Positions 23,411 through 33,731 of a DNA stretch of 64,000 bases are shown here, piece after piece. This stretch comes from Rhizobiales bacterium PAR1 (GTDB lineage: Bacteria > Pseudomonadota > Alphaproteobacteria > Rhizobiales > Beijerinckiaceae). A program made the translations under genes and the position numbers. The stretch lies in assembly GCA_002256205.1 (NCBI GenBank), contig NKIW01000004.1, positions 325,802 through 389,801 of the forward strand, written 5' to 3'. The notes below the pieces were generated by a model. It saw nothing but the letters and a program-made list of their open reading frames with translations, was not told the origin of the DNA and made no database searches. The stretch's first letter is position 1; each line of letters begins with the position of its first letter.

Positions 23411-23439
23411 TTCCGTTCGGTGAAATCCGTTACTCCGCC

Positions 23440-23493
23440 CTGCTCAAGTGCTTGGCCCTGCTCAAGTGCTTGGCCTTGCCCAATTACTTGGAC
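23440..23493. repeat. 18-bp tandem repeat at the 3' end of the binding-protein gene
   Basis: Two identical 18-bp units (CTGCTCAAGTGCTTGGCC) at 23440-23457 and 23458-23475, with a diverged third unit at 23476-23493 that contains the stop codon of the binding-protein gene. If the TAA were read through, the frame would continue for 17 codons with the repeated peptide KHLSRA. Confidence 0.85.
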
Positions 23494-28334: not shown

Positions 28335-28355
28335 GGCGTTAGAATTTTGCCCCGC

Positions 28356-28709
28356 ATGATCTGGTGCTGGCGCTGTAAGACTGAAATGCCAATGTTAGAT
28401 GAGGAGGAGTTCACGCAACTCCACGCTTTCGCGGAGAATGGTCAACGCAGATCCTTCTGGCATTTCTTCAAGCAGCCCAGCGCCATCGAGCGATCGCTGA
28501 ATTGGCAGCGCCTATGGTGCTCTGAATACGAACGGATAACTGGGCACAAAGAGTCCAACCCTAACGTAATCTGGCACCATCGGGTCAGTCTACATGGCCC
28601 ACCCTGCGCAACTTGTGGCAAACCGCTTAGAACGCCCCAAGCGAAGCTTTGTGCATTTTGTGGTTCCGCTGCGGCGGCAGCTCCCGAGGAACGCGATGCG
28701 GCCACTTGA
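28356..28709 (+). CDS. Small zinc-ribbon protein of unknown function
   Basis: About 117 residues from ATG 28356 (a TTG at 28347 is also in frame). Three Cys pairs: CWRC near the N-terminus, then CATCGKPL and LCAFCG near the C-terminus, giving a probable zinc ribbon or rubredoxin-like knuckle. Between them lies a segment rich in Trp, His and charged residues (SFWHFFKQPSAIERSLNWQRLW). I recognise the build from uncharacterised proteobacterial proteins but know no function. It sits between the binding-protein and permease genes of the hut importer and overlaps the permease start by 14 bases. Base composition is somewhat less G+C-rich than the neighbours, suggesting later insertion. Confidence 0.7.
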   Translation: MIWCWRCKTEMPMLDEEEFTQLHAFAENGQRRSFWHFFKQPSAIERSLNWQRLWCSEYERITGHKESNPNVIWHHRVSLHGPPCATCGKPLRTPQAKLCAFCGSAAAAAPEERDAAT

Positions 28710-29469
28710 ACCAATTTCCCAACCCGCCCGCCTCTGGTTGGGCGTGAGCTTTTTCGTCGTCTTCTTTGCCGGCTGGGCGCTGGCAACGCTTGGCGGTTAT
28801 GTTCCGAAAATCTTCCTCGCCGATCCGATCACCATGGTCGAGGACGGCTGGCGGTTGCTGACGAAATTCGGCTTCGGGCTTGATATCGCGATCACCATCT
28901 GGCGCGTGGTCGGCGGCTTCGTGCTGGCCGTGATCGTCGCCGTGCCGCTCGGCATCCTGATGGGCGCCTACAAGCCGATCGAAGCGTTTTTCGAGCCCTT
29001 CGTTTCCTTCGCCCGCTACCTGCCAGCCTCGGCGTTTGTGCCGCTCCTCATCCTCTGGGCTGGCCTTGGCGAGACGCAGAAACTGCTGGTGATTTTCCTC
29101 GGCTCCGTGTTCCAGATCGTGCTGATGGTGGCGGTCGTTGTCGGCAATACGCGGCGTGATCTCGTGGAGGCGGCGTATACGCTCGGTTCGGGCGACCGCT
29201 CGGTTGTACGCCGCGTGCTGATCCCGATGAATGCGCCGGAGATCGCGGAAATCCTTCGCCTCGTCCTCGGATGGGCCTGGACCTACGTTATTGTCGCTGA
29301 GCTCATCGGCTCCTCAGCCGGCATCGGCCATATGATCATAGACTCTCAGGCGCTGATGGCGACCGGGCAGATCATCTTCGGCATCATCGTCATTGGCGTG
29401 ATCGGTCTCGTGTCGGATTTTCTGTTCAAGCTGGTCAACCGGCGCCTCTTCCCCTGGAGACTGGCATGA
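28696..29469 (+). CDS. ABC transporter permease, SsuC/TauC type, hut-linked
   Basis: 257 residues from ATG 28696 (GAGGA ribosome-binding site 28687-28691). Six transmembrane helices; the first reads LWLGVSFFVVFFAGWALATLGG. Contains the class loop ARYLPASAFVPLLILWAGLGETQK and the EAA loop EAAYTLGSGDRSVVRRVLIPMNAPEI. Homodimeric pore of a NitT/TauT importer with the adjacent ATPase. An upstream in-frame ATG (28594) would run antisense to nothing but overlaps the zinc-ribbon gene and lacks homology. The stop TGA lies in the first unit of a 17-bp tandem repeat. Confidence 0.87.
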   Translation: MRPLEPISQPARLWLGVSFFVVFFAGWALATLGGYVPKIFLADPITMVEDGWRLLTKFGFGLDIAITIWRVVGGFVLAVIVAVPLGILMGAYKPIEAFFEPFVSFARYLPASAFVPLLILWAGLGETQKLLVIFLGSVFQIVLMVAVVVGNTRRDLVEAAYTLGSGDRSVVRRVLIPMNAPEIAEILRLVLGWAWTYVIVAELIGSSAGIGHMIIDSQALMATGQIIFGIIVIGVIGLVSDFLFKLVNRRLFPWRLA

Positions 29470-29516
29470 TTGGACGACTGGCATGATTGGACGACTTGCA
29501 TGATTGGGAGGCTGGC

Positions 29517-29520
<4 letters not shown>
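29461..29520 (+). repeat. Three 17-bp tandem units forming a chain of ATGA-coupled mini-ORFs
   Basis: Units at 29461-29477, 29478-29494 (identical) and 29495-29511 (diverged), with a partial fourth at 29512-29520. Each unit carries the ATGA stop/start overlap. The permease stop TGA (29467-29469) overlaps ATG 29466, which encodes MIGRLA and a stop that overlaps ATG 29483. This again encodes MIGRLA and overlaps ATG 29500, which encodes MIGRLA and overlaps ATG 29517, the ATPase start. The third unit has changed GGACGA to GGGAGG, giving a Shine-Dalgarno sequence 5 bases before ATG 29517, yet still encodes MIGRLA. Confidence 0.9.
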
Positions 29521-30299
<779 letters not shown>

Positions 30300-32522: not shown

Positions 32523-33731
32523 ATGCCGTTCGACCGCCTCTGGCGCAATGCCCGGATCGCGACGATGGCGGAGCGTCAACCCGGCCTTGGCGTCATCGAG
32601 CAGGGTGCCCTTGCAAGCCGAGGTGGCCGCATCATCTATGTCGGCCCGGAGGCGGATTTGCCCGTTGGCCCGATCGCCAAAGAGACGATCGACTGCGAGG
32701 GACGCTGGATCACGCCGGGGCTCGTCGATTGCCATACGCACCTTGTCTACGGCGGCAACCGCGCAAAGGAATTCGAGTTGCGCCTTGCCGGAGCGAGCTA
32801 CGAGGAGATCGCCCGCGCCGGTGGCGGTATCCTCTCGACCGTTGCCGCCACGCGCGCCGCGAGCCTTGAAACGCTGGTGGCCAGCGCCTTACCCCGTCTA
32901 GATCACCTGCTCGCTGAGGGTGTCACGACGGTGGAGATCAAGTCCGGCTACGGGCTTGATTTGAACACCGAGGCACAGATGCTGCGGGCAGCGCGGCGTC
33001 TTGGGGAAATCCGCGATGTCAGCGTCGCGACAACCTTCCTTGGCGCGCATGCCCTGCCGGCAGAAGCAGCGGGTGACAAGGACACCTATATCGCGCGGCT
33101 CTGTGACGAAGTTCTGCCCGCGATTGCGGCCGAAGGGCTCGCCGATGCGGTTGATGCCTTCTGCGAGGGCATTGCGTTTTCGCTTCAGCAGACTGCCCGC
33201 GTTTTCGAGACGGCGCGAAAGCTCGGCCTGCCGGTGAAGCTTCATGCCGATCAACTGTCGAACCTCGGCGGGGCGGCGCTGGCGGCACGGTTCGGCGCGC
33301 TTTCGGCGGATCACCTCGAATACACCGACGAGACGGGCGCGGCAGCCATGGCCAAGGCCGGCACCGTCGCGGTGCTGCTGCCGGGCGCGTTCTATTTCAT
33401 CCGCGAAACGCAAAAGCCGCCCGTCGAGCTCTTCCGCAAGGCCGGCACGAAAATCGCGCTGGCAACGGATTGTAACCCCGGCTCCTCGCCGCTGACCTCG
33501 CTGCTCCTGACCATGAACATGGGCGCGACTCTCTTCCGCCTTACGGTCGAGGAATGCCTTGCCGGGGTGACGCGAGAAGCCGCGCGCGCGCTTGGCAAGC
33601 TTGATGAGATCGGCACGCTGGAAGTCGGCAAGTCCTGCGATCTTGCGATCTGGGACATCGAGACGCCAGCCGAACTTGTCTACCGCATCGGGTTCAACCC
33701 GCTCCATACCCGCATCCGGAGAGGCCTATGA
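32523..33731 (+). CDS. hutI: Imidazolonepropionase HutI
   Basis: 402 residues, preceded by a strong GGGAGGG site. Amidohydrolase that opens imidazolone-5-propionate to N-formimidoyl-glutamate. Motifs: [20 protein letters not shown] (metal His pair), [29 protein letters not shown] (metal His), [10 protein letters not shown] and [12 protein letters not shown] (metal Asp). Overlaps hutH by 4 bases. Confidence 0.95.

Follow-up and report, generated by a model that had tools for sequence, protein, structure and literature searches.

How could two genes joined by a stop/start overlap stay coupled in translation once the sequence between them has grown? The question is raised by the permease and ATPase genes of an ABC transporter in the window, by which we mean the whole 64-kb stretch of DNA analysed. 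Here, the permease stop and the ATPase start are 47 nt apart and the junction is widened by 51 bp. Judged from the sequence, a chain of relay mini-ORFs probably keeps the two genes translationally coupled despite this widening.

The permease-ATPase junction in the window

The permease gene (28696..29469, + strand) and the ATPase gene (29517..30299, + strand), which begins ATG AGC AAG, were assigned from domain and homology matches as SsuC/TauC-like (BPD_transp_1) and SsuB/TauB/NtrD-like, respectively. The permease start at 28696 follows the gene call and the orthologue alignments, in which most rows begin at residue 18 or later; the longest permease ORF in the ORF list starts at 28594. The 3´ end of the permease gene (29455..29469, + strand) reads TGG AGA CTG GCA TGA, and its stop codon lies within the ATGA at 29466-29469. 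From this stop to the ATPase start, a 17-bp unit is present three times, and ATGA is found at four places (29466, 29483, 29500, and 29517). The units encode three mini-ORFs on the + strand, each translated as MIGRLA: relay 1 at 29466..29486 (ATG ATT GGA CGA CTG GCA TGA), relay 2 at 29483..29503 (ATG ATT GGA CGA CTT GCA TGA), and relay 3 at 29500..29520 (ATG ATT GGG AGG CTG GCA TGA). Relays 1 and 2 have an ATGA at each end, and the last ATGA of relay 3 is the ATPase start, where the relay TGA overlaps the ATPase ATG in the manner of RTGA-coupled small ORFs. A stop/start overlap (NTGA) is found at every step from the permease through the relays to the ATPase. Relay 3 also contains GGGAGG (29506..29511, + strand), a Shine-Dalgarno-like site of the ATPase start with an anti-SD duplex of -10.2 kcal/mol. 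The first-pass annotation had described both this ladder of three ATGA-linked MIGRLA units ending on the ATPase ATG and a third unit that keeps the peptide while carrying GGGAGG before the ATPase start, and the window sequence bears out both points.

Tandem Repeats Finder places the array at 29455-29520 with a period of 17 and a score of 97, the top of 24 rows in the 64-kb window, so that the array is no chance match. The three units are identical at 16/17, 14/17, and 13/17 positions in pairwise comparison, at spacings of 17 and 17. The array starts at 29455 with the 3´ end of the permease gene, which resembles the unit. Most simply, the unit would be the final stretch of the permease gene, duplicated, plus ATGA, with 29455..29469 as its probable source, and the relay peptides would end in RLA because the unit copies the last codons of the permease. 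When the 4.2-Mb genome was searched with a 21-nt unit pattern at up to 3 mismatches, only these three places were found (reversed control, 0), and the 101-bp junction has one match in its own genome. A mobile repeat as the origin of the unit was ruled out for this genome, which has no other copies. Two other tandem repeats in the window, at 2459-2510 (15 bp x 3.5, score 90) and 23437-23491 (18 bp x 3.1, score 82), have periods that are multiples of 3.

The transporter is flanked upstream of the permease by a gene for a substrate-binding protein of the SsuA/NMT1 type and downstream by hutC and hutF on the other strand, followed by hutI and hutH. Between the binding-protein and permease genes lies a 120-codon ORF (28347-28709, + strand) with CxxC motifs and no Pfam match. 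The first-pass annotation had named the transporter gene a Hut permease. The adjoining hut genes agree with this name, and the models for hutC, hutF, hutI, and hutH pass curated cut-offs; the transporter proteins resemble the SsuABC/TauABC/Sao group and fall below the curated equivalog cut-offs, so that the link to histidine use rests on gene position. An internal promoter was considered and rejected: the one sigma-70-like match found, against 1.2 expected, is on the minus strand. No sigma-70-like site was found on the + strand between 27000 and 30500, and relay 1 overlaps the permease stop with its start codon.

Since 17 is 2 mod 3, a frame that opens at one ATG closes at the TGA of the next ATGA, and frame arithmetic requires a distance of 2 mod 3 from NTGA to NTGA wherever frames are to be chained. 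A unit in phase 0 would join the frame of the first start to that of the ATPase, which would thereby be lengthened; with a unit in phase 1, the first frame would overrun the ATPase start out of frame. The unit length had been noted before together with the restoration of frame over 51 bp. It is the phase of the 17-bp length that is decisive, and the restoration over three units is incidental.

We propose that the two genes once shared a single NTGA, an ancestral state supported by the comparison below, and that the 17-bp units were added when the permease 3´ end was duplicated in tandem, as the similarity of unit and permease suggests. A ribosome ending at ATGA would restart there and find its next stop in the following ATGA, and three rounds of six codons each would bring it to termination on the ATPase start; the relay peptides would be by-products. 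In E. coli, one study reports that at a distance of 38 nt reinitiation fell by 80-90% in two gene pairs and was lost in a third, that one pair still reinitiated over 15 nt, and that the last 15 nt of the upstream gene were enough for coupling (PMC10666635). In view of the losses published for 38 nt, direct hand-over across the 47-nt gap of the window should be poor, and the relays would make each step an overlap. The Shine-Dalgarno pairing is moderate at the start of relay 1 (-6.4 kcal/mol) and there is hardly any at the starts of relays 2 and 3 (-3.0 kcal/mol). The GGGAGG site implies that initiation at a site of its own may aid synthesis of the ATPase or even be required for it.

Orthologous junctions and the hutI-hutH pair

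The permease was searched in 61 genomes, in 397 genomes of the family (122 matched at E 1e-90), in 397 genomes of the order (51 matched), in 385 genomes of the class (21 matched at E 1e-80), and in a further collection from which the best 80 of 425 matches were kept. From the 257 loci obtained, seven without an adjacent partner (L024, L027, L028, L030, L105, L178, and L200) and five with less than 60% permease identity (L022, L023, L025, L026, and L029) were left out. The remaining loci gave 196 distinct junctions after identical ones were merged, with start codons predicted from the alignment. The labels set by the script were direct NTGA overlap for 164 junctions, another kind of overlap for 12, relay for 12, and gap for eight; four labels were changed by hand, L020 (TTGA ... 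GTGA) to relay and L128, L221, and L225 to gap.

The resulting set comprises 172 direct overlaps, 13 relay-bridged junctions, and 11 plain gaps. As 164 of the direct overlaps are a single NTGA and eight are of other kinds, overlap is conserved among the orthologous pairs. With a single NTGA in 164/196 distinct junctions and stop-start contact kept, the comparison agrees with the earlier suggestion that an ancestral single overlap was multiplied in the window. A class sample of 19 loci, one of them from a genome already included, gave 15 direct overlaps, two gaps, and two junctions cut at a contig end. The 11 plain gaps among 196 and the two in the class sample imply that coupling can be given up. 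The first-pass annotation had also suggested aligning this junction in relatives; most of them do carry a single ATGA, and this does not by itself refute the relays, because other relatives have different ones.

Widened junctions that keep an NTGA at the permease stop are relays in 13 of 14 cases, from 14 to 188 nt long and with unrelated peptides. In the exception, L138, the frame is closed by a TAA that immediately precedes a TTG in frame with the ATPase; in the ten remaining gap junctions, the permease ends in TAA or TAG. In-frame extensions take the place of a relay in three direct junctions (24 nt in L219, 48 nt in L098, and 186 nt in L084). The six loci L213, L221, L225, L231, L232, and L138 form a clade with a duplication-like insert, an earlier TAG permease stop (TGA in L138), and a gap that measures 33 nt in L138 and about 15 nt in the others; with no NTGA linking them to the ATPase, these junctions are a natural contrast group.

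Length, start codon, and peptide vary among the relay junctions, and the linkage is constant. The nearest relative of the window locus (L002) has one relay of 20 nt, MILGSTP; L004 has a five-codon relay of 14 nt that starts from GTG, and L011 a 17-nt relay, MTGGCA. Four successive 32-nt relays of the MSKPVQEERLA type, ending on GTGA, are found in L013, and its sister L012 has one 22-codon frame across units of 33 and 32 nt. Two links, MTSLS and MTGSRS, make up the chain in L062. The remaining relays have 19 (L032), 15 (L053), 12 (L201), and five codons (L234, and L020 from TTG), and L096 has 63. The latter (L096/L187, genome G115) has a palindrome-rich, interspersed insert of 188 nt with 63 codons open from ATGA to GTGA and eight further partial matches in its own genome at 67-82% identity; being interspersed, it indicates that such elements too can become relays.

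Within the genus of the window, relay number ranges from none (a single overlap) through one and three to four. The first-pass annotation had raised the possibility that the ladder sets the permease:ATPase ratio; on this view, the number of relays would govern the ratio, with a constant fraction of ribosomes lost at every restart. The spread of relay numbers across species of the genus would suit such tuning, as would the imperfect reinitiation in published tests (PMC10666635), yet the strong final Shine-Dalgarno site in the window would blur the steps and other species of the genus manage with a single overlap or one relay. On this comparison of sequences we consider tuning improbable.

Relay peptides of 4 to 67 codons that differ wholly between relatives also bear on the notion that the peptide or an RNA structure is what counts, as in a leader peptide or attenuator. 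The four base differences among the window units are all synonymous, which speaks for such a role, and in the axe-txe system a two-codon minigene raises txe expression in cis, although its peptide is not considered to be active there (PMC8708949). Four differences are, however, too few to show conservation, so that selection on the MIGRLA peptide cannot be claimed, and the relays display neither the conserved peptide nor the conserved RNA structure by which a leader peptide or attenuator is recognized. We regard this explanation as very improbable. RNA structure at the junction was rejected separately, as folding was no better than that of shuffles (z +0.89), and Rfam gave no family at gathering score between 27200 and 31200.

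A second gene pair in the window, hutI and hutH, overlaps by ATGA at 33728-33731. In the family, hutI was matched in 167/397 genomes, and 70 loci were examined, made up of the top 30 and another 40 picked by hand to give spread and to represent the window's genus. The partner hutH is adjacent in 67 of these 70, with 56 direct NTGA overlaps, one TGATG, four other overlaps, four relays, and two gaps. Four of the five hutI-hutH junctions widened with an NTGA among the 70 loci are relays: L331 and L333, which are alike, L339 (links of 54 and 4 codons), and L381 (67 codons). The fifth, L332, carries an insert like that of L331, but its frame stops one base before the ATG. The inserts of L381 (200 nt) and L339 (about 172 nt), which are also open from NTGA to NTGA, have the look of inverted repeats, e.g., CTCTCCCGTCGGGAGAG in L381. 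The other gap, L395, has a CTGA; in L326 and L395, CTGA stands at the upstream stop and the next ATG is 2 mod 3 away, as read by eye, and both were counted as plain gaps because CTG is a rare start. The different chains in the relatives and at hutI-hutH suggest that such inserts may have been kept since they preserve coupling. Selection would tend to remove widenings that break the hand-over, leaving lineages that differ in their relays, a step that the comparison supports.

Phase, probable repeated origin, and chance

In all 17 relay junctions of the two gene pairs, the length from NTG to NTG mod 3 equals 2 x the number of links mod 3. These include three multi-link cases in which the total length is not 2 mod 3 and the chain rule still holds. 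When length was fixed and the interior shuffled, chains survived at a frequency of 0.04 for L062, 0.10 for L001, 0.12 for L339, and 0.30 for L013, of 0.45 to 0.96 for most others, and of about 1.00 for the shortest. As short G+C-rich inserts can be open by chance, most of the information lies in the phase.

A tree of permease plus ATPase proteins (local support 0.49 to 0.99) places the 13 relay tips with at least 10 changes, a parsimony figure that counts changes and not only gains, and the 11 gap tips with 5. Shuffled relay labels required a mean of 12.8 changes and a minimum of 10. The relays are nearly as scattered as chance permits, which points to repeated origin.

For a binomial test, we took about 13 separate relay origins, 10 from the parsimony changes and 3 at hutI-hutH by eye, with a probability of 1/3 each; the origin counts are approximate. 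The outcome is p 6e-7 for 13/13 origins and 6e-6 for 13/14, with L138 as a miss. It becomes 3e-4 for 13/17 if the three in-frame extensions are also misses, 0.007 for 13/21 if all gap changes on the tree are misses, 0.03 for 13/24 if L318, L326, and L395 are added, and 0.05 for 12/23 if the discovery origin is excluded. The statistical strength depends on what counts as a miss, from p 6e-7 to 0.05. The relay idea is addressed by the strict test, which is confined to junctions whose upstream stop has kept its NTGA.

These figures weigh most on the alternative of neutral slippage, according to which replication slippage produced the repeat at a place tolerant of changes in length, translation of the ATPase begins at its own Shine-Dalgarno site, and the mini-ORFs arose incidentally. 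The strong GGGAGG ahead of the ATPase start fits this alternative. Duplication of a stop/start site brings its ATGA along and gives an NTGA at both ends without selection, G+C-rich short inserts are usually open in several frames, and in-frame extensions and plain gaps occur too. Slippage of this kind nevertheless leaves the phase unexplained, since 13/14 widened junctions with the NTGA kept are chained (approximate per-origin p 6e-6) and 4/5 are chained at hutI-hutH. Moreover, some relays derive from an interspersed element and not from duplication (L096), and the ATPase start is without a Shine-Dalgarno site in three relay junctions (-2.7 kcal/mol in L020, -2.5 in L053, and -1.8 in L234). 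Neutral growth of the repeat is in our judgement unlikely, and the preferred reading is still a chain of relays that would keep permease and ATPase coupled.

Gene pairs 0-100 nt apart were examined in 840 kb of the genome that contains the window, a portion for which 751 genes were predicted. A one-link relay is found in 15/52 pairs with an NTGA stop against 28/194 with other stops (p 0.016), and in 15/52 in the true frame against 10/52 in the frame shifted by two (p 0.18). With multi-link relays allowed, the count is 20/52 against 8 and 11 of 52 in the shifted frames. The frame shifted by two and the other stop codons served for comparison because the frame shifted by one is depleted by construction, direct overlaps having been removed. 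A strong genome-wide excess of relays was not established, as the difference from the frame shifted by two is not significant and the excess is weak, and some of the matches may be ordinary small genes, e.g., a 45-codon frame in contig C7. On the same contig, a relay frame between two predicted genes (L302:9358-9389, - strand) holds a 17-nt near-duplication around ATGA.

Known coupled ORFs and the possible wider meaning of relays

Between senX3 and regX3 of mycobacteria, interspersed repetitive units (MIRUs) occur in tandem copies of 77 and 53 bp, both of which are 2 mod 3. MIRUs were reportedly described by Supply et al. in 1997. According to a later source, a MIRU is a short repeat whose ORF becomes joined by a 4-nt overlap to the gene beside it, so that its insertion has little effect on expression (PMC12548453). 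The ORF within the window repeat likewise overlaps its neighbours by 4 nt. Unlike a MIRU, the window unit is a 17-bp copy of the junction itself, found in an alphaproteobacterium, and is not dispersed, with only three units in the genome within 3 mismatches; the interspersed L096 insert with its 8 partial matches is closer to MIRUs than the window unit is. In mycobacteria, RTGA-coupled small ORFs are overrepresented, with an unconserved peptide and a conserved linkage, as one paper reports (PMC4633059). They share with the window a small ORF linked by RTGA to the next gene. However, they open a leaderless transcript, whereas the window relays stand between two genes, have a link at either end, and form a stack.

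Overlapping gene pairs coupled by termination-reinitiation are treated in two sources (PMC10666635; PMC6728339). The ATGA signal and the inferred mechanism would be common to those pairs and the window, and short upstream stretches suffice; the known cases have one overlap, whereas the window has a series of overlaps bridging a gap. The axe-txe minigene is similar in that a very short ORF, when translated, increases expression of the gene that follows in cis and that distance and frame matter. It differs in having two codons, 15 nt before the gene, no stop/start overlap, and a proposed role in mRNA protection (PMC8708949). In the engineered short-ORF ribosome delivery mentioned in PMC12548453, a short ORF brings the ribosome to the next start, as the relays would; the window relays are in contrast natural, placed between two genes, and repeated. 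We found no description of stacked relay ORFs between two genes in a literature search outside which most subscription journals and the supplements lay. Stacked relays that copy the junction between genes are a variant on known coupled-ORF systems, the closest being MIRUs and the RTGA-coupled small ORFs.

A more general rule may be considered tentatively, and we hold it to be possible though rather doubtful: that a coupled overlapping gene pair can usually be widened only by an insert with an unbroken chain from NTGA to NTGA. If true, coupled operons would gather cryptic relay ORFs whose sole product is the hand-over of ribosomes, and repeated insertions, by duplication or by an inserted element, would stack relays into ladders. 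Two models have been argued, in which the terminating ribosome either restarts at once or travels along the mRNA (PMC10666635). The junctions described here are a natural series of insertions into a coupled junction, and if widened junctions have survived mainly where a relay spares the ribosome this travel, evolution has run that experiment repeatedly. With ladders of one to four steps, the loss at each restart could then be measured directly. Relays of this kind would also explain one class of very small ORFs between genes that annotation overlooks.
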